Shown: positions 10,992-62,935 of the stretch, piece after piece
How the letters are laid out: each line of letters opens with the position of its first letter
How positions within the stretch are numbered: the first letter of the stretch is position 1
Source of the DNA: Fervidobacterium nodosum Rt17-B1
GTDB taxonomy: Bacteria > Thermotogota > Thermotogae > Thermotogales > Fervidobacteriaceae
NCBI RefSeq assembly: GCF_000017545.1
Contig: NC_009718.1
Location: forward strand, 496,001-560,000
Length of the DNA stretch: 64,000 bases
Reading direction: 5' to 3'
Position numbers and translations under genes: made by a program
Notes under the pieces: model-generated
The model's database searches: none
Told to the model about the DNA's origin: nothing
What the model saw: only the letters and a program-made list of their open reading frames with translations

Positions 10992-13544
10992 TTGAACAAT
11001 TACATTGTTTTTTCCATTTATTTCTCGGTAATTATATCCATTGTTAACTTTATTTATTCTTTAAATAAAAAGATTAGTAATTCATGCAAAGCAATACCAA
11101 TATTGAATTTATCATTGGTTCTTTTCTCTATTTTGGAACTGTTAAAATTAGAAAATAATTCATCAATTTTTGGAATATTCCAGAACGGAATATTGGCTTT
11201 CTTACCAGTCTTATTCACGACTTTCATTTTGAAGTTCCATTCAGAAATTATTCCTAGAAAGATTATTTTGTCTTACTCTATACCTATTATATACATTATT
11301 CTAAAATTTACAAAAGTATTCAAAAATATACCATATAATTATTATCTTTTTGCCTCTCTTTTGATTATATATATAACATTTTTCCCAACAAAAAAATCCA
11401 TGGATTATATTAGAATAAGATATCTTAACAGCAATATTATAACAATTTTCTTCGCAAGTATCTTTTTCTACGTGTTTATATTCATATTTTATAAAAATCA
11501 TCCAGTTCTTTCTATTAGCCTCTCATTTGTAATGATTGTTATTCAATCAATAATTATAAATCGTAAGTTAACGGATCACCCAATTGATAATTTGATTAAA
11601 AGTATTGAACAAGCAAATACAATTTTTGTCTTATTAGATGAAGACGACAACGTATTGTACATTAACGAAGCTGGGTTAAAATTCATAGGATTAAGTAGAG
11701 ACGAAATAATCGGTAAAAAAAACGAAGAAATTATTAAAATAACAAAAACAAGCAATCATTTAATAGAAAAAAATGGAAAAACTTATCGTTTTTCATTGCA
11801 AGAGACAAATGCAGGTAAGGTACTTATAATAAACGATATAACAAGTGGTAATAAATCTTTCTCTTCAATTGATATATTGAGCAATCTATTTGATTCACTT
11901 TTCGACAATGTACCAGATGGGGTAGTGATAATAAAAGAAGATGGCACGATACTAAAGTGTAACAGACAATTTTTAGAAATGTTTGGATACTCCAAAGACG
12001 AAGTTATAGGAGAAATAATAGATAATCTAATAGTACCTGAGGATTTAAGCAATGAACCAAAATTACTGAGAGAACTCGTTAAAAATCAAAAAACACTTAG
12101 AGTTGAAACTATAAGAAAAAGAAAAGATGGAAAAAAGATAGAAGTAAGATTGACTGTTGCAAAAATAAAAAATAATAATACTAATAACAACGATAAAGCC
12201 GAAGATTTAATTTACGCTTTCTATACAGATATAACTTCAGAAAAGGAAGCATTAAACATTGTACGAAACACTCTCCAAAAAGACATGTTAACAGGTTTGT
12301 ACACAAGGTCATATTTTCTGAGAAGACTTACAAGCTTAAGCGAATTCTCGTTAATAGGTGATCATCATGGAATAATACTTATAGATATAGACAATTTCAG
12401 CCAGATTAACATATTAAAAAATCACGCATTCGGTGATGAAATATTGAGACAAGTGGCATTAAGGATTAAAAATTCCCTAAGAGAGGGAGACATAATCTCA
12501 CGACCTTATGCGGATGAATTTTGGATAATCATTGAAAAAGCAGGAAAGAATTACCAACAAGCAAGAGAAGTTATAAACAACATAGTTTCAAAAATATTCA
12601 ATGAAATTTCTAAACCATACTATATCGACGGAGAAGTAATAGAACTCAAATTTTCATCTGGATTGCACGTATTTTCTATTATTGATAATGCCGATGAGGT
12701 TATGAGAAAAGCAAATCTTGCATTAAAACGTGCTAAATCTTCCAAAGATAAAATTATATTCTACAATATCCTAATAGACAATGAACTTCAAGAAAAATCA
12801 ACAAAAGAACGCGATTTAAGAGAGGCTTTCCACAATCGTGAACTGAAAATTTTTCTACAACCAATTTGTAAATACGATAAAACCATCGTAGGAGCTGAAG
12901 CACTCCTTAGATGGGTTAAAAAAGATGGAAGTGTACTACCACCTATAGAATTTATCCAACTGCTTGAAGAAAACGGCATGATAGTTTCTGTTGGCGAAGA
13001 AATATTAAGACAGGTCTGCGAAGTTCTCTCGGAAAACAACGAACTTAAGTTTATAGATATAAATGTTAGCCCAGTACAGTTAAGAGATGAAAAAATGGCT
13101 GAAAGATTCTTTAATATAGTAAGTTCATATGAAATTGACCCGTCAAAAATCGTCATCGAAATAACAGAAAATATACTCATAGATATGAACGATATAGTAA
13201 AGAATAATATAGATAAACTTCTAAAGTATGGCTTTGAACTATGTATCGATGACTTTGGTACCGGTTATTCTTCATTGGCATATTTAACACTCTTACCACT
13301 TAAAAAGATAAAAATAGACAAGTCTTTCGTTTTTAGACTTCCAGATGATAGAAAATCTATTAAACTTCTAGAAGCTATATACAATATAGCTAAGGCTTTC
13401 CAACTAGAGGCCATACCGGAAGGTGTCGAGAACGAAAAACAACTCGAGATTCTTTCAATGATTGGATACAAATTATTCCAAGGATTTTTCTTTGGTAAAC
13501 CTGTTCCAACCTATGAATTTTTGAAAAGATTAACAAAAGAGTAA
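10992..13544 (+). CDS. Membrane PAS-GGDEF-EAL c-di-GMP phosphodiesterase
   Basis: A signalling protein of about 850 residues. The first 190 or so form several membrane helices. Two PAS domains follow (about 200-270 and 300-415, the second with VPDGVVIIKEDG...GYSKDEVIG), then a GGDEF domain (about 425-600) and an EAL domain (about 610-850). The cyclase signature is RPYADEF instead of RxGGDEF, so the first two glycines are gone and cyclase activity is unlikely; the domain may bind GTP as a regulator. The EAL half keeps EALLRW and DDFGTGYSS and should hydrolyse c-di-GMP. The start is TTG 10992 (or 10986), with AGAGGTGA upstream. Confidence 0.9.
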   Translation: MNNYIVFSIYFSVIISIVNFIYSLNKKISNSCKAIPILNLSLVLFSILELLKLENNSSIFGIFQNGILAFLPVLFTTFILKFHSEIIPRKIILSYSIPIIYIILKFTKVFKNIPYNYYLFASLLIIYITFFPTKKSMDYIRIRYLNSNIITIFFASIFFYVFIFIFYKNHPVLSISLSFVMIVIQSIIINRKLTDHPIDNLIKSIEQANTIFVLLDEDDNVLYINEAGLKFIGLSRDEIIGKKNEEIIKITKTSNHLIEKNGKTYRFSLQETNAGKVLIINDITSGNKSFSSIDILSNLFDSLFDNVPDGVVIIKEDGTILKCNRQFLEMFGYSKDEVIGEIIDNLIVPEDLSNEPKLLRELVKNQKTLRVETIRKRKDGKKIEVRLTVAKIKNNNTNNNDKAEDLIYAFYTDITSEKEALNIVRNTLQKDMLTGLYTRSYFLRRLTSLSEFSLIGDHHGIILIDIDNFSQINILKNHAFGDEILRQVALRIKNSLREGDIISRPYADEFWIIIEKAGKNYQQAREVINNIVSKIFNEISKPYYIDGEVIELKFSSGLHVFSIIDNADEVMRKANLALKRAKSSKDKIIFYNILIDNELQEKSTKERDLREAFHNRELKIFLQPICKYDKTIVGAEALLRWVKKDGSVLPPIEFIQLLEENGMIVSVGEEILRQVCEVLSENNELKFIDINVSPVQLRDEKMAERFFNIVSSYEIDPSKIVIEITENILIDMNDIVKNNIDKLLKYGFELCIDDFGTGYSSLAYLTLLPLKKIKIDKSFVFRLPDDRKSIKLLEAIYNIAKAFQLEAIPEGVENEKQLEILSMIGYKLFQGFFFGKPVPTYEFLKRLTKE

Positions 13545-39409: not shown

Positions 39410-40534
39410 ATGAATAACGAAGCTACCTGTGTATTATCTTTAATCCGAACTAATCTAACAAAAGAAAAAATAAATAAAATCATAAACTTTGCTTCTGAAA
39501 ACAATATAAGTATAAGCAAAGTACTAAAATTTGATGAAAGTAAATTTCAGGAATTATTTTCATTCTCAAAAGAAGATATACAAGAAGTATTAAAAGCAAA
39601 GGACAATCTTGGAAATTCAAGCTTTCTCTTGGAAGACATAACTTCTAAAGGAATTTATTTAATCACCGTACTAGATGAAGAGTATCCCAAAAAGCTAAAA
39701 GAAAATCTAAGTATAGACGAACTTCCTCCCATGCTATTTTGTAAGGGCAACACGGATTTACTAAATGAAAAGCACATATCCATCGTTGGAAGTAAAAACG
39801 CAAATGAAATATCCATCGAATTCGCCAAAAATATAACAAAAAAGGCCGCAAAAAACGGTCAAGTAGTAGTGAGTGGATATGAAAAAACTATTGATAAAGC
39901 AATTATAGAAAGCACAATAAACAATGGTGGCAGAGCTATCATACTCCTATCCCAAGGAATACTCTTATTCCAAATTCCAAACGAATACTACGAATACTAC
40001 ACAGATGGAAACATACTAATATTAAGCATATACACACCAAATTCCAAATGGGATAATAATAAAACAATAGAAACTGAAAAAATCAAATTCGCCTTCGGAG
40101 ATGAAATATACATCGCAGACATAAAACACGAAGACGAAATTTGGAACAGCACAGTAGCTATAAAAAATAAAACAGAAAACATTTTTGTTAGACAGCCAGA
40201 AGACACAGAAGATACCGCAAACCTAGAATTGATAAACAAAGGATTAAAGGCTGTAAACATAATTGGCGAAATACTAGAAAAAGAAAAAAGCATTGAAGAA
40301 CATATAATAGACATACTAAGAGATAGAAAATTGAAAGCTTCCCAAATAAGAGAAGAGCTAAAAAAGAAAGGAATAGAAATCTCTTCCCAAAAACTTACAC
40401 ACCTGATAAAAAGTATTCCAAATATTGAGACAGAAAAAGATAGTGCTGGTAATAGATACTATCTAAAAGACTCTCCTGAACAATCCCAAATATCTTACGA
40501 AAACCTTCCTTTGTTCAGAGAGGTGGAAAAATAA
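39410..40534 (+). CDS. DprA/SLOG-like protein with C-terminal winged helix
   Basis: A 374-residue relative of the DNA-processing protein DprA. A helical N terminus is followed by the Rossmann-like SLOG core: YPKKLKENL, PPMLFCKGNTDLL, ISIVGSKNAN, VVVSGYEKTIDKAIIE and GGRAIILLSQGI. The DprA RxGSR-type glycine site is changed to VGSKN. A C-terminal winged helix (about 300-360) resembles DprA DML1. Ordinary DprA loads RecA on single-stranded DNA; a version next to recQ in a defence island is more likely an immunity component. The last 132 codons are duplicated at 51,367. Confidence 0.8.
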   Translation: MNNEATCVLSLIRTNLTKEKINKIINFASENNISISKVLKFDESKFQELFSFSKEDIQEVLKAKDNLGNSSFLLEDITSKGIYLITVLDEEYPKKLKENLSIDELPPMLFCKGNTDLLNEKHISIVGSKNANEISIEFAKNITKKAAKNGQVVVSGYEKTIDKAIIESTINNGGRAIILLSQGILLFQIPNEYYEYYTDGNILILSIYTPNSKWDNNKTIETEKIKFAFGDEIYIADIKHEDEIWNSTVAIKNKTENIFVRQPEDTEDTANLELINKGLKAVNIIGEILEKEKSIEEHIIDILRDRKLKASQIREELKKKGIEISSQKLTHLIKSIPNIETEKDSAGNRYYLKDSPEQSQISYENLPLFREVEK

Positions 40535-51366: not shown

Positions 51367-51762
51367 ATTTGGAACAGCACAGTAGCTATAAAAAATAAAA
51401 CAGAAAACATTTTTGTTAGACAGCCAGAAGACACAGAAGATACCGCAAACCTAGAATTGATAAACAAAGGATTAAAGGCTGTAAACATAATTGGCGAAAT
51501 ACTAGAAAAAGAAAAAAGCATTGAAGAACATATAATAGACATACTAAGAGATAGAAAATTGAAAGCTTCCCAAATAAGAGAAGAGCTAAAAAAGAAAGGA
51601 ATAGAAATCTCTTCCCAAAAACTTACACACCTGATAAAAAGTATTCCAAATATTGAGACAGAAAAAGATAGTGCTGGTAATAGATACTATCTAAAAGACT
51701 CTCCTGAACAATCCCAAATATCTTACGAAAACCTTCCTTTGTTCAGAGAAGTGAAAAAATAA
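51367..51762 (+). pseudogene. 3' fragment of the DprA-like gene
   Basis: Duplicates the C-terminal 131 codons of the gene at 39410, including the winged helix, but has no start region; the frame is closed by TAA at 51343-51345 and only a TTG at 51457 could start a 101-residue piece. Two amino-acid-level differences at most separate it from the intact copy (VEK versus VKK at the end). Confidence 0.9.
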
Positions 51763-51926: not shown

Positions 51927-52601
51927 TTAGAGCTTTAATAAATACCCATTCTTTTTCAACCAATCTTCATATTTTTTATAGTCAGGCATGAGTGCTTTTA
52001 CTTTTACCCAAAAGGCTTTGCTATGATTTTTCTCCTCAAGATGAACAATTTCGTGCACAATAACGTAGTCTATAACAGAAAGTGGTGCCATAATAAGTCG
52101 CCAAGAAAAATTCAAATTTCCTTTATAAGAGCAGGATGCCCATCTCTTTTGGGCATTTGTTATGTTTATTTTGTTATACTTAAATCCTCTTTTTTGAGCC
52201 CACCAGTTTACCCGTTCTGTAATCTTTTCATATGCAGCCTTTTTGTACCAATCTATGAATACATTTTTTGCGTCATTCAAAACATCTTTTGAAAGATAAA
52301 AACCATTTTCAAATTTAAGTGGGACATCTTGTTTTTCCACTACATGCAATTTATAATACTTACCGAGATACAAAAATCCCTCTCCACTTACAAATTCTTT
52401 TGGCAAGATTTTAGGATCTCTTGCATCTATTTCCTGCTTATTTTTATAAATCCAATTTTTATGCTTATTTATAATTTTCCAAATACTTTCCTCGCTCAAA
52501 TTAAATGGAACTCTAATAATTAATGTTCCATTGTCTGTTATTTGCAAAGCTACCGTTTTTCTTTTTGAACGTATTATTTTTTCAATTTTTATCTCTTCCA
52601 T
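51927..52601 (-). CDS. YgjP-like metal-dependent hydrolase (DUF45)
   Basis: A 224-residue zinc-peptidase-like protein. The active-site signature VHEIVHLEEKNHS (HExxH plus a downstream His) and QKRWASCS are hallmarks of the YgjP/DUF45 (M48-like) family. It is the last gene of the minus-strand restriction operon. AGGAAG precedes ATG 52601; an upstream GTG at 52610 overlaps the hsdR stop. YgjP-like proteins are often encoded behind hsdR and have been suggested to process restriction subunits, but their substrate is not established. Confidence 0.88.
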   Translation of the reverse strand: MEEIKIEKIIRSKRKTVALQITDNGTLIIRVPFNLSEESIWKIINKHKNWIYKNKQEIDARDPKILPKEFVSGEGFLYLGKYYKLHVVEKQDVPLKFENGFYLSKDVLNDAKNVFIDWYKKAAYEKITERVNWWAQKRGFKYNKINITNAQKRWASCSYKGNLNFSWRLIMAPLSVIDYVIVHEIVHLEEKNHSKAFWVKVKALMPDYKKYEDWLKKNGYLLKL

Positions 52602-52606
52602 TACTA

Positions 52607-55600
52607 TCACTTCCTAAAGTGATAATAAGCAAGTTCTATTAGTTTCTGAGCAATTTCATTTCTTTTTTTGTGTACAATATTCTTGATATCAGCCATATAT
52701 GGTTCATGTTCTTCACTTACAGTTTCATGTTTTCTTTTAAAAGCTGGAGATGATAGTTTAATCAAATGCCTGGTTAGATATGATTTAAGATTATTTTGTT
52801 TCGTTGGATTTTCCCAAAAGTCAACTTTTTGAACTTCTCTTTTGATTATCTCTATAACATCTCTGGTTGTATTAACAAGAAAATCTATTTCACTATCAGT
52901 TAATTCGTTAACAGTTTTTTTACCAAATATTTCACTTTTAATCAAACCAAAAAATGGCATTTCCTTCTTAGGTTCAAATCCAAACGTTTGTTCAACTTCT
53001 CTACCTTTTTTAACTTCTTCTCTTAATTTCTTAAGTTCTTCATATAGAGCATCCCAATTTTCCTTATACTCCTCAAGTATCTTCTTCAATCTATCAGAAA
53101 ATCTTTCATAAAATTCTGGGTCTTCTTCCCAATATTCTTCAATATGTTCAATGATTGCATTCTTAAGTTCTTGAGTTTTTACTTTACTTGTTTTTCTATG
53201 AAGCTTTTCTAAAAACTTGTCTTCTAAAAGAGGAGTAGGTGGTATTTTGGGATCTATCCCTTTTGAAATCAGATACTCTTCAACAATTTCTCTTATCTTA
53301 TTACTTGCATCTTTTATGCTTAACTTATCATCTCTATATACATTTCGTGCTGACTCTTTTATGAAAGCAAGAATTTTCAAGTCAGTAAGGTATTTTAATG
53401 CTGCGAAGTCAGGAAGAACCTCGTCCATACAATGATTAAACCGCCTAACAAGAGCTATAAACTCGTTTCTAATATTTTTATCAACAAGAATATCAATACA
53501 CTCATCTATATCCTCACGCCAATTTCTAATGCCATGTTTTTTAAAAAATTCTTCAATAAGATTATGAACATACTTTAACTCATCGATGCTTTTTGCTTTG
53601 TCCTTTACAACCTGTGAAATTTCTTCGATATCCTCATCAGCGTAAATAGCCAGAGCCTCTTTTAAATGTTTTAGAACTCCTACATAGTCTACAACAAAAC
53701 CACATGACTTATTTTTATAAACTCTATTCACTCTTGCAATAGCTTGTAGCAAGTTATGTCCTTTAATCACATTATCAAGATACATAACTTGCTCTATAGG
53801 TGCGTCAAAACCAGTTATCAGCATGTTTTGAACAACCAAAATACCAACATTTCCACTGATACCATTTTCATTTACCTTGTCAAATGGAAGCCTAAAACTT
53901 TTTATTATTCTCTCGTGCTCATTGGGGTCTGTGTAATTACGATACTCAGGTGGATCATTTTGAGCACCTGAAATAACCACTCCAACTTCCAATTTTTTCA
54001 ACGTTTCTAAATCTATTTTTGAGTTATTTTCTTTTTCCAATTCAAAAATTTTCTCCTTGAGAGATTCTTCAAGCGCTCTTTTATACCTTATCGCTGCAAG
54101 ACGCGATGCCGTAACAACCTGGGCTTTAAATTTATTTGGGAATATATGAGCTATGTAATGTTCTATCATATCTCTAGCCTTGTCACGAATTACCTCTTCC
54201 GCTTCGAGATATGCTTTCCATACGAATTTTCCCATTATCATTCTCTTAGTATCTTTATCAGCGTCGCTAAAAACATCCTCAAATTTTGCATTTGCCGCTT
54301 CTTCATCTGAAATCTCCGCACTATGAACTCTTCCTTCATATACAATATCAACGGTTACACCATCTTCAACTGCCTGTTTTATGCTGTACTTGTCTATATA
54401 ATCGCCAAATGTTATCTCAGTCTTTTCTATAGGTGTACCTGTAAACGCTATTTTTGTTGCATTTGGAAGAGCTTTTCTTAAATTTGCGCCTAGCAACTTG
54501 TATTGAGTTCTGTGTGCCTCATCTATCATTATTAGAATATTAGATGATGTATTTAATACAGGAAATTCTCCTTCTAATTCCCTCTCTTGAAATTTATGAA
54601 CAATAGCCATAACAAGTTCTGGTGTGTTAGTTTTTAAAAGCTCTTTGAGTTCATTAATGCTTCTAGCTAACCTAACAGTAAAACCCACACTTTTTGATGT
54701 TTCATTCAACTGCTTTTCAAGATCTCTTCTATCTGTAACAAAAACAACTTTGTAATTCCCAAACTCAGGATTATGATATAACTCGCGAACCATAAACATC
54801 ATTGTCAAAGACTTACCTGAACCTTGGGTATGCCAAACTATGCCCCCTCTTTCGTCCGGTGTTTTACCTTCTTTTAACCTTTTTACCATCTTCTTTACCG
54901 CTCTAAATTGCTGATATCTCGCAACAACCTTTACCATTTTACTCTTTGGATCTTCCTTAAAGATGGTGAATGTGTGGAGCAAATCAAGAAGGTTTTCTTT
55001 TGAAAGCATACCATGAATCAAAACTTGCTGGCTTGTTACATTTCCATCTGGATTTACATCTGACAATGAAAAAGGATAAGGGTCTTTCCACTCAACAAAG
55101 TGCTCATACTCTGAGGTTACTGTGCCATACTTTGCGACCTGATTGGATGTAGCTACTACAAATAGGTTGTACCAGAAAAGCTTTTCATTTCCCTCACTTA
55201 CGCCACGTCTGTTACAATAGCGCATAAGCTGAGTAATTGCTTCAGAAATTGGGTCAGCAACTGCTGGAGATTTGCATTCAACCACCACAAGAGGCAAACC
55301 ATTTACAAAAAGAACTATATCGGGAACAATATGTTTTTCAGTTCCCGTTATATTCACTTTAAACTGTGATATAGCAATGAATGAATTATTGTCCGGATTT
55401 TTAAAATCAATAAACTTAACAGTTGGGCTTTTTTCTCCTGTTTTTCTATTTTCAGAAACTGAGGTGTTCTCTAAAAGCAAGTCATGGATTTCTTTATTTG
55501 CCTCTAAAAGAGAGTTTGACTGTGGTGTTATAATTCTTCGAACAACTTCACTTATTTGGTCATCTTCTATCCATGGGTTTATTCTCTTTAAAGACTCCCT

Positions 55601-55810
55601 TAAAACTCCCTCAAGGATTACTTCTTTAAAGCTTTCTCTGAATTTTTGGCTTTCACCATATTCAGGTTCTAATGAAGAAGTGAACGATATTATTTCTTTT
55701 GTATCCTCAGGGTTATCTTTGTTTTGTCTATAAATCTTCCATCCAAGCCTTTGAAGGTGAAAGAGGAATGAATTTTCAACATAATGTTCTTCGTCAAGTT
55801 TGTAAAACAT
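52607..55810 (-). CDS. hsdR: Type I restriction enzyme, R subunit
   Basis: A 1067-residue motor-nuclease subunit. The N-terminal PD-(D/E)xK nuclease has VPDIVLFVNGLP then VVVECKSPA. The SF2 translocase follows with Walker A HTQGSGKS (about residue 330), the DEAH box MIDEAHRTQ, FTGTPIE, and motif VI QAIARVNR. A helical C-terminal region mediates contact with HsdM and HsdS. ATG 55810 lies behind AAAGGAG, two bases after the hepT stop. The gene appears intact and should be active. Confidence 0.95.
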   Translation of the reverse strand: MFYKLDEEHYVENSFLFHLQRLGWKIYRQNKDNPEDTKEIISFTSSLEPEYGESQKFRESFKEVILEGVLRESLKRINPWIEDDQISEVVRRIITPQSNSLLEANKEIHDLLLENTSVSENRKTGEKSPTVKFIDFKNPDNNSFIAISQFKVNITGTEKHIVPDIVLFVNGLPLVVVECKSPAVADPISEAITQLMRYCNRRGVSEGNEKLFWYNLFVVATSNQVAKYGTVTSEYEHFVEWKDPYPFSLSDVNPDGNVTSQQVLIHGMLSKENLLDLLHTFTIFKEDPKSKMVKVVARYQQFRAVKKMVKRLKEGKTPDERGGIVWHTQGSGKSLTMMFMVRELYHNPEFGNYKVVFVTDRRDLEKQLNETSKSVGFTVRLARSINELKELLKTNTPELVMAIVHKFQERELEGEFPVLNTSSNILIMIDEAHRTQYKLLGANLRKALPNATKIAFTGTPIEKTEITFGDYIDKYSIKQAVEDGVTVDIVYEGRVHSAEISDEEAANAKFEDVFSDADKDTKRMIMGKFVWKAYLEAEEVIRDKARDMIEHYIAHIFPNKFKAQVVTASRLAAIRYKRALEESLKEKIFELEKENNSKIDLETLKKLEVGVVISGAQNDPPEYRNYTDPNEHERIIKSFRLPFDKVNENGISGNVGILVVQNMLITGFDAPIEQVMYLDNVIKGHNLLQAIARVNRVYKNKSCGFVVDYVGVLKHLKEALAIYADEDIEEISQVVKDKAKSIDELKYVHNLIEEFFKKHGIRNWREDIDECIDILVDKNIRNEFIALVRRFNHCMDEVLPDFAALKYLTDLKILAFIKESARNVYRDDKLSIKDASNKIREIVEEYLISKGIDPKIPPTPLLEDKFLEKLHRKTSKVKTQELKNAIIEHIEEYWEEDPEFYERFSDRLKKILEEYKENWDALYEELKKLREEVKKGREVEQTFGFEPKKEMPFFGLIKSEIFGKKTVNELTDSEIDFLVNTTRDVIEIIKREVQKVDFWENPTKQNNLKSYLTRHLIKLSSPAFKRKHETVSEEHEPYMADIKNIVHKKRNEIAQKLIELAYYHFRK

Positions 55811-55812
55811 TT

Positions 55813-56160
55813 TTAACTCTCCTTTTCAAGAAGGAATTTTACTGCCTTTTCAAGTTCCGGCAGCTTCTTTTTGATAACCTCCCAGATTATTTCAGCATCT
55901 ATTCCAAAATACTCATGAATAAGAATATCCCTTAAACCAGCGATTTTCTTCCATTCTATTGGATAAAGCTCTCTTTTATCATCCGGAATCTGCTTAACAG
56001 CTTCACCAATATTTTCAAGAGCTTTTAAAACTGCATAAAAAACCAGTTCATTTTCAACAAAATTGTTGTATTTTTCAATTCCTTGTGTAAACTTTTTAAT
56101 GCGATCAATCTCTTCAATGATGTCTTCAAGAATTACTTTTAGTATACGCTTTTTAGACAT
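55813..56160 (-). CDS. hepT: HEPN toxin HepT
   Basis: A 115-residue all-helical protein of the HEPN/DUF86 family. The catalytic RNase motif Rx4-6H is present as RDILIHEYF, which also provides the tyrosine that the antitoxin AMPylates in the characterised HepT-MntA pair. The ATG at 56160 overlaps the mntA stop by eight bases. It lies between hsdS and hsdR in the same transcript rather than as a separate locus. Confidence 0.9.
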
Positions 56161-56443
56161 ATATAGCTTCCTCCATTATGAAAGGTTTTATGCGGGGATT
56201 TATAGCCGATTTAATCACAAGGTCAACCTTTTTACCAAAAAGTTCTTCAAGGTAGAATTTCAAATTCATGTAATTATCAAAAGTTTTGTAACCCTCTTTA
56301 AAATCAACTATGATATCTACATCACTATCTTTTCTTTGTTCGCCTCTTGCATAGGAGCCAAAGATAGCAATTTCAATTACTCCGAACTTTTCCACTAAAT
56401 AATTTTTACGTTCTTGTAGAATTACTTGTATATCACTGTTCAT
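56153..56443 (-). CDS. mntA: MNT-type nucleotidyltransferase antitoxin MntA
   Basis: A 96-residue minimal nucleotidyltransferase. The signature [15 protein letters not shown] fits GSx10DxD, and the third acidic residue follows in a later strand (KVDLVI). In characterised pairs this protein neutralises HepT by adding AMP residues to the tyrosine of its motif. Its start overlaps the end of hsdS by four bases (ATGA type), and its end overlaps hepT. Confidence 0.92.
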
Positions 56444-57729
56444 TTTTCTTCCTCCTCAATAAGGTGATTTACTCTAACTTTGCCTGTCAGCAAATCTTCC
56501 ATTAAGCCTTTTTTGACTCTTTCAAGTTTTTCCTTATAGGCTTGCTCTTTTTCTATGACTTCATCTATTTGGGATAAAATTGAAGCTATGCGGTGTTGTT
56601 CGGAAAGCAAACAAGGAACTTTCACCTCTAACTTTGCTAGCTGACTTTTAGATATCTCGTTAAAAGTAGTTCCTGAACCCAATGAAATCATTTTGTTTAT
56701 ATATCGATGCAAACAATAGTAAAAAAAATCTTCATCATAATAGTTTTTGTTTAAGATTATACTTTTGCAACCCTGATTTGTTGCATAATTAGTTTTAACA
56801 ATAGATAAATATCCTATTGGTGCACGGCTTGACAAAACAATTGAATCCCTAGGTATAATCTTAGCAGCACAACTATTTAATCCATCTTTACTAATTTTTC
56901 TTTGGGATGTATAAATGTACTTTTTTTGCTTGCTCAAGTCATCGGGTGTAACCCAAACTATATCACCATTCCAAAATTGAGGCTTAGAAGTATCTGGAGT
57001 AGCACCTGATACAATTCTGCCTGTTTCTCCTAACCTTACCACTTCCCACTCCTCTGGAATCCTCCCAAGCGGTGAGTCCTTGAATTTATCAATCTTCTCA
57101 TTCCTCAATCTCCACTTCTCACTCTCACCTTCACCCTCACTTACCACTCCTTTAGTAAGCAAATCTTGCATCAAACCTTGCTTTATGCGTTTGTACTTTT
57201 CTATAATTTTGCCCGTTTTTTCAATTGCACGGTCAACAGTTTTAAGTATCTCAGCAATTTTTTGCTGCTCAAAGATGGGAGGTAGGAATATTTCAAAACT
57301 TAAAAAATCTTTTTCATGAACTCGTTTTGAACCAGTACCTTTTTCATAGAGAGAAAAAGCTTTATATAAAGTGCGTAGTGTATAATCTAAATAATAAACA
57401 TCCAAATTTTTACTTACATCAAATGAAGGCACATCAGAAGTAGAACAATAACCATCCAACTCTGGTGGTATAACACCAAAAGCACCACGAACTAAATTTT
57501 GTTTTCCATAAATAAATTGTCCCGCTTTTCTCTTATAATATATTGTAGATTCTTTTTCTCTATTCAATTCTACCTCTCTAACTTCTCTTGCAAAAACTCC
57601 TTTGTTCCATAATCTAACTGTTATTCGCTTATTTGGATCCTTTTCATTATCAGGTATCCTAGAAATACTTAAAACTTCTCCCAACTTTACCCTTTTCCAT
57701 CCCTCAAGTACTTTCACATTTTCGCTCAT
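56440..57729 (-). CDS. hsdS: Type I restriction enzyme, S subunit
   Basis: Specificity subunit with two target recognition domains of about 150 residues, each followed by a conserved helical spacer: PPIFEQQKIAEILKTVDRAI with IKQGLMQDLLTKG, and then LLSEQHRIASILSQIDEVI with VKKGLMEDLLTGKVRV. The second TRD starts with PEEWEVVRLGE. ATG 57729 lies six bases after GGAGGT; an ATG two codons earlier is too close to it. It is separated from hsdM by a 350-base gap, which is unusual. Confidence 0.92.
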   Translation of the reverse strand: MSENVKVLEGWKRVKLGEVLSISRIPDNEKDPNKRITVRLWNKGVFAREVREVELNREKESTIYYKRKAGQFIYGKQNLVRGAFGVIPPELDGYCSTSDVPSFDVSKNLDVYYLDYTLRTLYKAFSLYEKGTGSKRVHEKDFLSFEIFLPPIFEQQKIAEILKTVDRAIEKTGKIIEKYKRIKQGLMQDLLTKGVVSEGEGESEKWRLRNEKIDKFKDSPLGRIPEEWEVVRLGETGRIVSGATPDTSKPQFWNGDIVWVTPDDLSKQKKYIYTSQRKISKDGLNSCAAKIIPRDSIVLSSRAPIGYLSIVKTNYATNQGCKSIILNKNYYDEDFFYYCLHRYINKMISLGSGTTFNEISKSQLAKLEVKVPCLLSEQHRIASILSQIDEVIEKEQAYKEKLERVKKGLMEDLLTGKVRVNHLIEEEEK

Positions 57730-57735
57730 TTTCAT

Positions 57736-58086
57736 ACCTCCATTTTTTCAATCGATTCATTATCAGTAAGCAAATTAATCTAACTTGATGGCACAATTGT
57801 TTTAAAATCGTATTTTAAACAATTCCACTAGTTGATAAATACACCAGCGATTTTAAACTTATCAAATACTGTAGCATTGACTGAAATCAATATGAAACTT
57901 TCAAAAGCTATATTTAAATGTTTTGCGATATAATTAAAATTTAATTCTTGGCTGTCTTGTAAAAAAGCTTTCCACTTCTTCTATATTGTATGATTCATTT
58001 ATTGTATGATTCACTTGGCGAAAATTGTCCCAATAAGTATTACACAATCGCTATAATCACTAACTTATAATCAATATGTTTGATGT
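57736..58086. other. Gap between hsdM and hsdS with a possible HsdM-like remnant
   Basis: About 350 bases interrupt the restriction operon. On the minus strand an open stretch of roughly 50 codons (57980 down to the stop at 57828) ends in FDKFKIAGVFIN, which closely resembles [12 protein letters not shown] inside the HsdM C-terminal region. The sequence may be a decayed fragment of that kind. Two nearly identical 13-base repeats (TTGTATGATTCA) are at 57986-58012. No promoter is obvious. Confidence 0.4.
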
Positions 58087-60531
58087 TTAAACTTTCTCGT
58101 AATATCCAAGTTCCTCCAAAAATTTGTTTAGCTTACTGACTTCCTGTTCTCGTTCATTTAGAAGACGGTCAAGAGACACACTATATTTATCCCAAAGATT
58201 TTCAAAAATCTTTATCAGTTCTTTTTTCTCTTCATTTAAGTACTTTTCAAGTTGATTGCTAATTAATTCAAAGAACTTTTCGAGCAATAGCTCTTTTGCT
58301 TCTTCTTCGGTAATAGATTCAATCTTTTCACCTATCTTATTTTCAAGTTCCTTTTGCTTTCCGCTTATCTCACTTCTTACCTTTTTAATTTCCTTTTCTT
58401 TTTGAACAATATTTTCTAACAAATCTTCCCATTTTTTTACTTCTCTTCTTGCAGCCTCGCTGTCTTTTGATTTTAAATCTTCAACCAAGTCCTTCAGAAA
58501 CTCTTTGACTTTGCTTGCAGTTTTATCTCCCTGCTGCTCTTCATCCCAATCTTCAACCTCTTCTAAAAGCTCACTTAAATCCGCTTCAATTTCGGCAAGC
58601 CTGCTTTCAAGATCTTCAATTTCTTCTATGTCTTCTTTAAAATATTTTTCTTTAATTCTTTCTCTTTCAACCAAATCCTTGTTCCAACCCGCAGAAACTA
58701 TACTTTTGAAATCATAGACAAGCTCTTCCCACCAATTTGCAAATATGCCTGCTATTTTGAATTCATCAAACGTTCCGATTGGTAAGAGATATTCTTTCAA
58801 TTTTTTCAAAGCTTCATTTCTAAATTTCCAAAGATTATTTCTACCAAAAAATTGCTCAATTTCAGGTTTTACAATCTGCCACCATTCCAAAAGCTTTTCT
58901 TTGTGTTTTTCTATTACACCCTTTACTTCGGTGGAATTATTAATTACTTCTCTAATTTGGTTTTTATCAGTAACGTCCTTTTTAAACTCCAAATAATTTT
59001 CGCTTTTCTCTGTTAGCAAAATATCATAGTTTAAGCTAAATTTTTTCAATTGATTTTCGTAAAGCATTACCTCTTGTTTTGTAATACCACCAAAAAGGTG
59101 TGCGTGAACATCTTCAATTTCAGGATCTGGAGAATTGTCAACATAGCGTCTAATATTTAGATTAAAGTCGTTTTCCTCTATCTCCTTTATATCAACTAAT
59201 TTGGAATATTTGGGTATTTCCTTCTTTTCTTCAAACACTGTAACTATCTTCTCTATATCTTCTGGTCTCAAGAAATTCTGATTTCTACCTTCTCCGTACT
59301 CTCTGTCGGCGTTAATGAACAAGATCTTATTTTTCAAATTTTCTGGTTTGTTTTTATTAATAACAATAATACAAGCTGGTATTCCAGTGTTGTAGAAAAG
59401 TTTAGGTGGAAGCCCTATTATTGCCTCAATCAAGTCATCTCTTACTATTCCTTCCCTTATAACTTTTTCCTGTCCGCTCCTAAACAAAACACCATGAGGC
59501 ATAACTGTTGCCATTACTCCGTTATCTTTCAAACTGGCAATCATATGTTGCAAGAACATAAGGTCAGCTTTTTTTCCATTCTCAGGAGTAAAACCATATT
59601 TAAATCTTTCTGTAAATTGCATATTTGCGCGTGAATAGTTTTCTGAGAAAGGTGGGTTGGCTAATATTCTGTCAAACTTTTTTATATATCCATTTTCCAA
59701 AAACATGGGATTTGTCAATACATCTTCATTTTCTATCTGCGCATCATTAATGCCGTGTAGAATCATATTCATTTTACAAATAGACCATGTCAATCCATTA
59801 AGTTCTTGCCCATATAGTGCTAAATTTGCTGAGTTTTGTCCTTGTTCTTCAACATAGTGGAACGCTTCAATCAAAAAACCACCAGAACCTACAGTTGGGT
59901 CATAAATCGACATACCTTCACGGGGTTTGACCAACCTTACCATCAATTTTTTTACGTGAGATGGTGTGTAAAACTCTCCGCCTTTTTTTCCAGCTGAATC
60001 AGCAAATTCTTTTAGCAAATATTCATAAGCAGCGCCAAGTAAATCCGGGAATTCAAAATTTGAAGGTATTAGTTTATAGTTATTGAAATGATTAATAAGA
60101 TCAATAAGTTGCTGATCTTTGAGGCGTGTTTTTCCTTTCACCGCGTTAAAATCTATGTGTTTTAAAACCCCTTCGAGCCCTGTATTAGCTTCCTCTAAAG
60201 CACTTAAAGCTTTATTAAGCTGATTACCAACATCTTCCTTCAATTTCAAAATATTCTCCCATCTTGCCCTTTCAGGAACAAAAAATGTATCGCCGTAAGA
60301 GTTTGGATCTTCTAATAGTTCATTTATTTGTTCTTCAGAATACCCCATATCTCTGAATTCATTTTTTAACTCCCGTCTTTTTTCTTCAAAAACATCCGAA
60401 GCGTATTTTAAAAATAACATACCAAAGATATATTCTTTATATTCAGAAGCATCCATTTTACCTCTGAGTTTATCAGCAGCTTTAAAAAGATGTGCTTCTA
60501 GCTGTCTTAATGTTATTTTTTCTCCAGTCAA
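58087..60531 (-). CDS. hsdM: Type I restriction enzyme, M subunit with long C-terminal extension
   Basis: N6-adenine methyltransferase subunit. The HsdM N-terminal helical domain ([17 protein letters not shown]) is followed by the SAM motif [10 protein letters not shown] and the catalytic motif NPPF. From about residue 500 a further 300 residues of charged coiled coil extend the protein to 814, against about 500 for ordinary HsdM; this part contains [24 protein letters not shown] start at 60531 follows AGGAGGGG. The insertion sequence begins within about 15 bases of that site. Confidence 0.92.
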
Positions 60532-60547: not shown

Positions 60548-61610
60548 CAAACCTTGATGTTGTTAACCAAAGGTATTGATAAATTTCAAAAATCATATTA
60601 TCTTCTTAAAGAGGGGACACCCCCCAATATACTCTCAATAAGGAGGTATCCCGACATGACTAATATCCAACTCAAATGCCCTCATTGCGGCTCTTCTAAC
60701 TTCATCAAAAATGGTCATGATAAATTCAAAAACCAAATCTTCTTTTGCAAAGACTGCAAGCGTTACTTTAAACTTTCTTTCACCAAAAAACACAAACTTT
60801 TCTCTTTCCCTTACCCTCGTTGTGTTCATTGTAACCATGTCATGGAAATTTACAAAATCCGCCGTTATTTCGTTCGTTTCAGATGCAGAAAGTGCAACTT
60901 CAAAACTTCTGTTCCACTTTCTCTTCCTCAGCCTGTGCCTTTCAACTTTCATCCTTTCAAATTCTTCCGTTTCCCTATCTATATCGTTCTCAAAGCTTTC
61001 ATCTTGTACTTCAAATACAACCTTTCTCTTCGTGCTATTAAAGCTTGCTTGAATATCAATGTCTCTCATGTCGCTATTTACAAATGGATTATCAAGTTAT
61101 CTTCTGTTATTTCGCTTTTTGAGTTTGAGAATGTATTTAAAGTTCACGGTGATGAAACAGTTATTGTATTTCGAGACAAAAAGTACTATGTGTGGCTATT
61201 AGTTGAGCATGGTACGAATTTAATAGTAGCTTGGCATGTATCAAGATATCGTGATATGTCACAAGTAAAGATATTGTTAGATAAATACTTTAGTCAAAGA
61301 AAACAAAACACACAAATAGAGTTAATAACCGATGGACTAAAAGCGTACGAGATAGCAGTGAAACTAAATTTTGATAATGTTGAGCACAGAGAAGTAAGAC
61401 TAGGTAAAAACAACGAATGTGAATCGAAATTTTCGTTATTTAAGATGTTTGTTAGAGCAAAAAGGAGCTTCAAGAAATTTAGCAACATACGGTACTATGT
61501 AAATGGTTTTTGTGTAGTAAGGAACCTATGCAAGTTATATGAGAACGAAAATGAGATGATTACAGCTTTAGCTTCCATCATCACTACTAGTTAACAGCAT
61601 CCAAACCTTA
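60548..61610 (+). mobile_element. Insertion sequence with DDE transposase
   Basis: About 1.06 kb. The ends hold imperfect inverted repeats: left TTGATGTTGTTAAC (60554-60567) against right GTTAACAGCATCCAA (61590-61604), with partial matches continuing outwards by a few bases. A target duplication could not be defined. The transposase stop lies inside the right repeat. A diverged second copy of the transposase starts at 63,742. Confidence 0.6.
60656..61594 (+). CDS. Transposase with N-terminal zinc ribbons and DDE domain
   Basis: ATG 60656 behind AAGGAGGT gives 312 residues; an upstream in-frame start at 60554 has no such site. Two zinc-ribbon pairs (CPHCGSSNF, CKDC and CVHCNH, CRKC) precede a helix-turn-helix. 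The DDE catalytic residues fit VHGDETVI, ITDGLKAYE and NECESKFSLFK. The plan resembles IS6/IS240-type and related IS families, but family assignment is uncertain. The frame looks intact, so the element may be mobile. Confidence 0.88.
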   Translation: MTNIQLKCPHCGSSNFIKNGHDKFKNQIFFCKDCKRYFKLSFTKKHKLFSFPYPRCVHCNHVMEIYKIRRYFVRFRCRKCNFKTSVPLSLPQPVPFNFHPFKFFRFPIYIVLKAFILYFKYNLSLRAIKACLNINVSHVAIYKWIIKLSSVISLFEFENVFKVHGDETVIVFRDKKYYVWLLVEHGTNLIVAWHVSRYRDMSQVKILLDKYFSQRKQNTQIELITDGLKAYEIAVKLNFDNVEHREVRLGKNNECESKFSLFKMFVRAKRSFKKFSNIRYYVNGFCVVRNLCKLYENENEMITALASIITTS

Positions 61611-61885
61611 ATAACTTAAGAAAAATTCTACATAATTATTTAAATTCTATACAATTTTAGTTGTAGCAAACGATAATGATGTTGTCAGTATTTTCTATTT
61701 GTCTCGTATTGTTTATTATATCACATTAAGGCCTCAGACCAAAAAATCACTGAATATTTTTAAGCAATTAATTTTTTGAAACTTTTCTTCGACTTTACAA
61801 ATATTATATAATTAAAATTAATAACAATATTTATGAACCTAAAGTAAAACGGTAAAATACTTAGAATGTGCAAGGAGCTAAGAAT

Positions 61886-62935
61886 ATGAAAGATGAATTG
61901 CTCAAGCTAATTAATAAATTTAAAAAGAACAAGGATATCTTTAAGTTCGGAGAAGAAGCAACAAAACAAGGAATAGTTTTAAGAATCTTAAAAGAATTAG
62001 GATGGGATTTCTTTAACATAAGCGAAGTTCAACCAGAATACTCAGTTGGGAATCAAAAAGTAGATTACGCTTTAGGATATAATGGGAAGATTAAAGCTTT
62101 TATAGAAGTGAAAAAAGTCAATGAGGATTTGGAAAAACACCAAGAACAACTTCTAAATTATGCATTTAAAGAAGGTGTGAAATTAGCTATATTAACTAAT
62201 GGAATTAGTTGGTGGTTTTATTTACCTTTGCGTGAAGGAAGTTGGGAACAAAGAAAATTTTATACCATTGAAATACTCGACCAAAAAAGTGGAGATATTG
62301 TGGAAAAATTTGAGGAATTTTTATCCAAGGATAATGTGATTTCTGACAAAGCCGTAGAAAATGCTGAAAAATTATACAATAGTAGGCAAAAAATAACTTT
62401 GATAACCGAAACACTCCCCAAAGCATGGGATAAAATAATTTCCGAACCTGATAAAAGACTTGTAGAGATTTTAGCTGAAACAACTGAAAGATTGTGTGGA
62501 CACAAACCTGATGACAGAATAGTTGAAGAGTTTTTAGGAAAAATTAGTCAAGAAAAATCAACACCAAAAACAATGCCAACTTACTCTGAAACTCAAAATG
62601 TTGAAGATTTTACTGAAAAATCCATTATAGGCTTTACTCTAAGAAAAAAGGAATACCAAGTTAACTCTTGGAGAAACTTATTAATGAGTATTATCGAGAT
62701 CGTCTTAACAACAAACAGAAAACAATTTGAAAAAGTACTTAGTTTAAAAGGTAGAAAAAGACCATATTTTTCAAAAATGCCTAGTGAGTTAAGAGAACCT
62801 GAAAAAATCAAAGACACGGATATTTATGTTGAAACAAATCTTAGCGCAAATAGTATTGTTTCGCTTTCAAAAAAGGTTATAAAGCTTTTCGGATATGACG
62901 AAAATGAGCTTATAATACATACAAAAGAAAGCTGA
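61886..62935 (+). CDS. Stand-alone PD-(D/E)xK nuclease of type I HsdR N-terminal kind
   Basis: ATG 61886 lies behind AAGGAG; the GTG at 61868 precedes that site and is rejected. The first 150 residues match the predicted type IV/HsdR N-terminal nuclease group: a helix, then LRILKELGW, QPEYSVGNQKVDYAL and AFIEVKK, giving the E-D-ExK core, followed by LTNGISWWFY. The next 200 residues are helical and charged and may recognise DNA. There is no helicase domain. It stands alone, next to an IS, and could be a modification-dependent or accessory restriction enzyme. Confidence 0.78.
   Translation: MKDELLKLINKFKKNKDIFKFGEEATKQGIVLRILKELGWDFFNISEVQPEYSVGNQKVDYALGYNGKIKAFIEVKKVNEDLEKHQEQLLNYAFKEGVKLAILTNGISWWFYLPLREGSWEQRKFYTIEILDQKSGDIVEKFEEFLSKDNVISDKAVENAEKLYNSRQKITLITETLPKAWDKIISEPDKRLVEILAETTERLCGHKPDDRIVEEFLGKISQEKSTPKTMPTYSETQNVEDFTEKSIIGFTLRKKEYQVNSWRNLLMSIIEIVLTTNRKQFEKVLSLKGRKRPYFSKMPSELREPEKIKDTDIYVETNLSANSIVSLSKKVIKLFGYDENELIIHTKES

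Follow-up and report, generated by a model that had tools for sequence, protein, structure and literature searches.

A HepT-MntA toxin-antitoxin pair in a probable cargo slot between hsdS and hsdR of a type I restriction operon

Results

The window analyzed here is a 64-kb stretch of the Fervidobacterium nodosum Rt17-B1 genome. Gene calls and Pfam searches placed six genes on its minus strand in the order hsdM, hsdS, mntA, hepT, hsdR, and ygjP, confirming an earlier note on this DNA, according to which a HepT-MntA pair lies inside a type I restriction operon. The type I methyltransferase gene hsdM (positions 58087 to 60531; 814 aa; TTG start) encodes Pfam HsdM_N and N6_Mtase domains with an NPPF motif and matches PADLOC MTase_I. 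The specificity subunit gene hsdS (56440 to 57735; 431 aa) contains two stretches of PF01420 and matches PADLOC Specificity_I; the end at 57729 given for it earlier corresponds to an in-frame second ATG, while the called start is at 57735. These genes are followed by mntA (56153 to 56443), encoding a minimal nucleotidyltransferase antitoxin of 96 aa (PF01909, E = 6e-21; PADLOC PDC-S09, E = 4.9e-37), and by hepT (55813 to 56160), encoding a HEPN ribonuclease toxin of 115 aa (PF01934, E = 5.5e-28). The restriction/translocation subunit gene hsdR (52607 to 55810; 1067 aa) comprises HSDR_N and SWI2_SNF2 domains with PD..ExK, Walker A, and DEAH motifs; like those of mntA and hepT, its assignment was backed by alignment. 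The last gene of the operon is the metallopeptidase gene ygjP (51927 to 52610; PF01863), which overlaps hsdR by 4 nt. The domains and motifs of hsdM, hsdS, and hsdR are all intact, as expected of a type I restriction-modification system.

The junction letters agree with the tight spacing reported earlier: hsdS and mntA overlap by 4 nt, mntA and hepT overlap by 8 nt, and hepT is separated from hsdR by 2 nt. A Shine-Dalgarno-like sequence could be read from the letters before each of mntA, hepT, and hsdR, and the ribosome site of hsdR is the end of hepT. Because of their co-orientation and overlaps, hsdS, mntA, hepT, and hsdR likely share one message. To this extent, the previous claim that the toxin is part of the restriction transcript is partly supported, but an insertion sequence (60556 to 61601, plus strand; PF13610 transposase) leaves the present expression of the operon uncertain, because it ends 24 nt before the hsdM start. 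Thirteen other near-full copies of this element are present in the genome at 98 to 99% identity. Its edges were set where most genome copies stop matching; inverted repeats did not resolve its ends. The region contains 33 promoter-like matches, compared with 22.9 (SD, 4.0) in shuffles. The minus strand had no such match between hsdM and hsdS, and the four within the insertion sequence that point at hsdM are all weak (9 of 12). The insertion sequence may have altered the promoter of the operon.

Two further features of the window were recorded. Upstream of the insertion sequence, positions 61868 to 62935 encode a protein whose start is HSDR_N-like and whose end weakly resembles the SeqA C terminus; a relative of this protein adjoins a stand-alone HepT-MntA pair in another genome of the comparison set (G015, locus L014). 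In addition, a perfect direct repeat of 300 nt (40139 to 40438 and 51367 to 51666), originating in the 3' portion of a DprA-like gene (39410 to 40534), flanks an 11-kb block with helicase-like, SMC-like, and type III-like mod and res genes (labels read from their sequences). This block has the appearance of an island that was either inserted at the end of the DprA-like gene or duplicated together with that end.

Class I HepT/MntA pairs are defined by neighboring PF01934 (or PF08780) and PF01909 genes with the motifs RX4HXY and GSX10DXD, HepT being an RNase that is neutralized when MntA puts AMP units on the tyrosine of RX4HXY (accessible text of PMC7641770). In the window, the PF01934 and PF01909 genes adjoin. 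The RX4HXY motif spans aa 77 to 84 of HepT, with R77, H82, and Y84 invariant in all 20 aligned HepT sequences, and GSX10DXD spans aa 29 to 43 of MntA, with G29, S30, D41, and D43 invariant in 15 of 15 aligned MntA sequences. The antitoxin gene comes first, and the overlap is short (8 nt); an 8-bp overlap is also described for a Legionella pair in the accessible part of PMC11586414. On these features, the window pair is a class I HepT/MntA (type VII) system by the published definition (PMC7641770, as far as its accessible text goes). A profile built from the 20 HepT sequences matched the HepT-type PDB chains 6m6u, 5yep, and 6m6w, in the motif region only (profile positions 68 to 105 of 110), while the single HepT sequence had no match in the PDB. 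By Pfam, HepT is a lone domain of 115 aa, with PF01934 only and without a sensor or NTPase part. MntA also matched PADLOC PDC-M05A (E = 9.1e-6), and HepT had no PADLOC match. PDC-S09 and PDC-M05 reportedly go back to Payne 2024.

The distribution of the pair was analyzed in a comparison set of 101 genomes, including that of the window. A HepT match was found in 28 of them and in none of the eight other same-genus genomes (two of which are <90% complete), which rules out conservation of the pair within the genus. The same hsd operon is nevertheless present in three of these eight (G004, G006, and G008; HsdR identity, 86 to 87%) as well as in two further genomes (G068, 76%; G022, 71%), each time with ygjP matched 3' of hsdR. 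In all five, hsdS stands directly against hsdR. A common hsdS end, in which the three same-genus operons have the ribosome site GAGGAGG, runs into hsdR there and into mntA in the window. Thus, the pair is a co-directional module between hsdS and hsdR with empty sites in relatives. Because hsdS abuts hsdR in these five related operons, the pair was most simply inserted at the junction; its clean loss from all five would be the less simple scenario. In one of the same-genus operons (G004; L062, 505 to 2933), hsdM appears split over two reading frames.

Elsewhere in the comparison set, no HsdR, HsdS, or HsdM match was found beside any of the 29 other HepT loci, within flanks of approximately 1.5 kb, some of which end at contig ends; the queries were the subunits of the window, with which distant type I families could be missed. 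The nearest stand-alone pair (G028), whose hepT has a frame break, showed no hsd match within 12 kb. One weak HsdM-like match (25% identity; E = 6e-4) was detected approximately 3 kb from the pair of G042.

For a broader survey, an HsdR alignment was used to scan named genomes; the best 80 of 537 HsdR relatives were taken, and hsdS was sought upstream of hsdR with its own profiles. This resolved 61 of the 80 loci; 12 had <1.5 kb of upstream sequence, and 7 had more but hsdS was not found. The pair was searched for with profiles of class I (PF01934-type) HepT, by which other HEPN-MNT classes could be missed. Between hsdS and hsdR, where it recurs in other phyla, mntA-hepT is a minority cargo: of the 61 resolved loci (from the best 80 of 537), it was found in 3, one of which lacks hepT. 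In Thermosulfurimonas dismutans (L071), a complete pair (HepT, 68% identity; MntA, 53%) follows an OLD-like gene and a scar. In a Crocosphaera metagenome-assembled genome (MAG; L127), a complete mntA-hepT lies among other small genes. A further case was found on plasmid pSYN7502.01 of Synechococcus sp. PCC 7502 (L060), with mntA-hepT accompanied by two PIN-family genes in the space between hsdR and an hsdS annotated in two pieces around transposase genes. This was the one of five examined contexts, taken from 92 plasmid records matching HepT, that contained hsd genes, the other four being without annotated hsd genes. MntA was also matched by 3 phage records.

The third of the 61 loci, in Caldanaerobacter subterraneus DSM 13054 (L073), contains an mntA that is 96% identical to that of the window, with its last codons changed and extended. 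An IS607-like element (L073, 5698 to 7930), consisting of a MerR/resolvase gene and a gene for a 499-aa protein, takes the place of most of hepT. The 499-aa protein had no Pfam match; we take it to be TnpB-like. Approximately the last 21 hepT codons remain, followed by hsdR. Judged by this locus, the toxin is lost and the antitoxin largely kept. Directly 3' of ygjP, the same locus contains a second, different mntA-like gene (11976 to 12257) without an adjoining hepT.

The outcome that the earlier note had named as speaking against its reading, namely a gene order confined to this genome and a toxin motif degraded in relatives, was in the main not observed, as the pairs of L071, L127, and L060 keep the HepT and MntA motifs, with extra genes in each slot. 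Half of it holds, since Caldanaerobacter lacks most of hepT and the G028 hepT has a frame break. A chance overlap of small open reading frames is ruled out by the intact catalytic motifs, the empty sites, and the recurrence at the same junction. The antitoxin-first order and the intactness of both genes in the window fit a live pair, as does the loss of the toxin with retention of the antitoxin in Caldanaerobacter.

What else occupies the junction was analyzed in the same survey. In the 61 resolved loci from the best 80 of 537 relatives, the distance between hsdS and hsdR was <200 nt in 17 and at least 200 nt in 44. Slot proteins were scanned for families in 36 of these 44 loci (all except L078, L094, L096, L108, L126, L131, L134, and L146). 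In these 36, again from the best 80 of 537, GmrSD_N was found in nine loci; OLD-like AAA_15 in four; TIR, RhuM, and reverse transcriptase in three each (for reverse transcriptase, L101 was just below the cutoff); SIR2 and NYN in two each; and KwaB, Cap15, a YhcG nuclease, Schlafen AlbA_2, and Bro-N in single cases. The two NYN proteins, encoded just before hsdR (L112, 6647 to 7276; L135, 7310 to 7939), are identical letter for letter and perhaps represent one case. The two MAGs are labeled as different phyla, so that the identical protein reflects either a recent transfer or a binning error. Some slots run against a defense pattern: a weak Y1-transposase-like match was all that L070 yielded, L114 encodes a helicase, the L116 proteins have domains of unknown function, a DUF4258 gene occurs in L133, and in L073 the transposon adjoins mntA. 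The varied and unrelated cargo at one junction argues against a coupling that would be special to HsdR or HsdS. Between hsdM and hsdS of one same-genus operon (G008; L064, 9776 to 11098), we observed a gene that is Schlafen/RecG-like, judged by its sequence, and that marks a second cargo junction.

Traces of recombination were found at some of these loci. In Thermosulfurimonas, the order is hsdS, the OLD-like gene, approximately 35 codons of an hsdR start, approximately 34 codons of an hsdS end, mntA, hepT, and the full hsdR, so that the scar (L071, 7998 to 8216) lies between two stacked cargo modules. Its hsdR-start piece is 90% identical to the hsdR of the locus itself (101 nt), and its hsdS-end piece is 83% identical to the hsdS (88 nt). 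Partial hsdR starts were detected in 3 of 43 slots tested, from the best 80 of 537 relatives (L071, L103, and L146), and no such scar is present in the hsdS/hsdR slot of the window. Within the 351 nt that separate hsdM from hsdS in the window (57736 to 58086), the minus strand contains a decayed hsdM fragment (57744 to 57869), which corresponds to HsdM aa 587 to 628 with two stops (blastx, E = 1.7e-8; tblastn, E = 4.4e-10). Its best DNA match was to the hsdM of G022 (L066; 78% over 68 nt), and it did not match the corresponding place of the window's own hsdM (blastn, word size 7). The fragment is thus nearer in DNA to the hsdM of other operons than to its own and is likely a recombination scar.

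In line with exchange, identity to related operons peaks around the junction. Mean identity to L073, L064, L062, and L063 was 91 to 94% over the last 745 nt of hsdM and 95 to 97% over the first 800 nt of hsdR, compared with 84 to 85% in the rest of hsdM, 79 to 81% over the last 1,200 nt of hsdR, and 78 to 83% in ygjP. The alignable parts of hsdS were 87 to 91% identical, and the recognition domains were mostly not alignable. This peak is not simply a slowly evolving stretch, because three more distant operons lack it (hsdM end, 66 to 69%; hsdR start, 73 to 76%; hsdR end, 71 to 72%). As it is common to relatives without cargo, it fits an exchange of hsdS as well as of cargo. Together with the few scars, this suggests that hsdS and cargo may be swapped when the stretches on either side recombine.

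The slot members need three label changes in trees of 35 MntA and 35 HepT sequences, where the window pair stands next to the stand-alone G028 pair. The MntA tree omitted two long-branch rows; the HepT tree carried a long-branch warning and included the two pieces of the broken G028 hepT as separate rows. Independent captures of the pair into slots are suggested by these trees, in which holding the slot members together was not rejected (AU test, P = 0.125 for MntA and 0.107 for HepT).

Discussion

In our view, this type I family probably has an exchangeable cargo slot at its hsdS/hsdR junction, and in the window this slot probably holds a complete, autonomous HepT-MntA pair. mntA would be translated just before hepT from the shared message, and MntA would attach AMP to the RX4HXY tyrosine, rendering HepT inert. 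If MntA output or activity falls, be it by phage takeover or by loss or swap of the operon, unmodified HepT would cut RNA and growth would stop. The pair would act autonomously, with the operon providing coexpression and cotransfer, and recombination within the conserved end of hsdS and start of hsdR would let cargo enter and leave. An autonomous pair is favored because the slot takes many unrelated defense-type genes and because the restriction genes live without any. In a widespread restriction family, the pair is one option among many defense-type genes for a fixed slot, which supports a defense role. The same operon with the pair, without the pair, and with the antitoxin alone forms a natural comparison set, and the scars suggest one possible route by which the slot may be refilled.

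A possible, albeit rather doubtful, alternative is that the pair chiefly stabilizes the restriction operon by killing or slowing cells that lose or replace it. A HEPN-MNT pair stabilized a plasmid in Escherichia coli (accessible text of PMC4621449), the slot region seems subject to recombinational exchange, a setting where addiction pays, and the lost toxin and kept antitoxin of Caldanaerobacter fit a toxin that cannot be left alone. However, five close operons persist without the pair, and 17 of the 61 junctions from the best 80 of 537 relatives hold nothing sizeable. Moreover, AMPylation is covalent and premade HepT would stay inactive, so that killing after operon loss would need fresh HepT or a de-AMPylase; de-AMPylation is only proposed in the accessible part of PMC11586414.

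It seems unlikely that HepT is restrained by the restriction complex in addition to MntA and is set free once HsdR or HsdS is blocked by a phage, in the manner of PrrC and EcoPrrI. In favor of this reading, PrrC, too, is a HEPN ribonuclease encoded in a type I locus, the same logic was proposed by Anantharaman in 2013 for HEPN genes linked to restriction-modification (PMC3710099, in its accessible portion), and genes that overlap or nearly touch make a coupled output likely. A HEPN nuclease joined to an ABC/SMC-type NTPase sensor, as in the PrrC/EcoprrI guard, is nevertheless not what the window encodes: HepT is a single domain of 115 aa with PF01934 only, without a sensor or NTPase and with its own antitoxin. 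Furthermore, relatives have the same hsd genes without HepT, unrelated defense-type genes occupy the same slot, and the nearest stand-alone pair (G028) has no hsd match within 12 kb. Least probable is a passive hitchhiker, a silent or decaying mobile module that sits in a permissive site without benefit. In its favor, Caldanaerobacter has lost most of hepT, the hepT of G028 is broken, an insertion sequence lies just upstream of the operon, and none of the eight other same-genus genomes (two <90% complete) has a HepT match. Against it, mntA and hepT of the window have open frames, complete motifs, and ribosome sites, and the motifs are also retained by three other slot pairs.

A bolder proposal, which we put forward with little confidence, is that the hsdS/hsdR junction is a recombination-loaded slot with cargo read out together with restriction and that HepT acts as a fail-safe, held back by an MntA brake that depends on the operon output. 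Phage shutoff or inhibition of restriction would then switch HepT on, and a PrrC-like second line would arise from a plain AMPylating toxin-antitoxin pair with no dedicated sensor.

The literature already describes toxin-antitoxin pairs located between hsdS and hsdR as well as HEPN genes within restriction operons, as the accessible parts of the sources cited here show. A linkage of HEPN families to restriction operons, along with the idea of a second line, is presented in the available text of PMC3710099, and PDC-M05, a nucleotidyltransferase with a HEPN protein, is a guilt-by-embedding candidate (PMC12988326, accessible text). For class I HepT-MntA between hsdS and hsdR, no identifiable description was found among the matches listed in the literature searched, which comprised accessible text without supplements. 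Compared with the PADLOC entries PDC-S09 and PDC-M05, which rest on guilt by embedding, the window pair is similar in that MntA matches both and differs in that HepT has no PADLOC match.

With respect to class I pairs, the window resembles SO_3166/SO_3165 of Shewanella oneidensis, which likewise combines PF01934 and PF01909 with RX4HXY and GSX10DXD (PMC7641770, accessible text). In contrast to the window, a link to hsd was not seen in that paper, the main text of which does not contain the word "restriction." Similar to EcoprrI, a type IC system, the window has a HEPN ribonuclease gene within a type I hsd locus, but PrrC, which includes an NTPase of the ABC type, has its activity gated by the restriction complex, whereas the HepT of the window is a single-domain protein paired with MntA (accessible portions of PMC3710099 and PMC12707154). 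The closest layout is that of the coli type I system with RptR and DarTG2, in which hsdS and hsdR flank a toxin-antitoxin pair, a metallopeptidase gene follows downstream, and the junction was seen as a potential hotspot (PMC12255303, as far as accessible). DarT ADP-ribosylates DNA, while the window combines a HEPN RNase with an AMP-transferring antitoxin, and, as a further difference from the RptR-controlled island, an insertion sequence lies directly upstream of hsdM in the window. The locus in the window is thus a clear, well-preserved further example of a described pattern.
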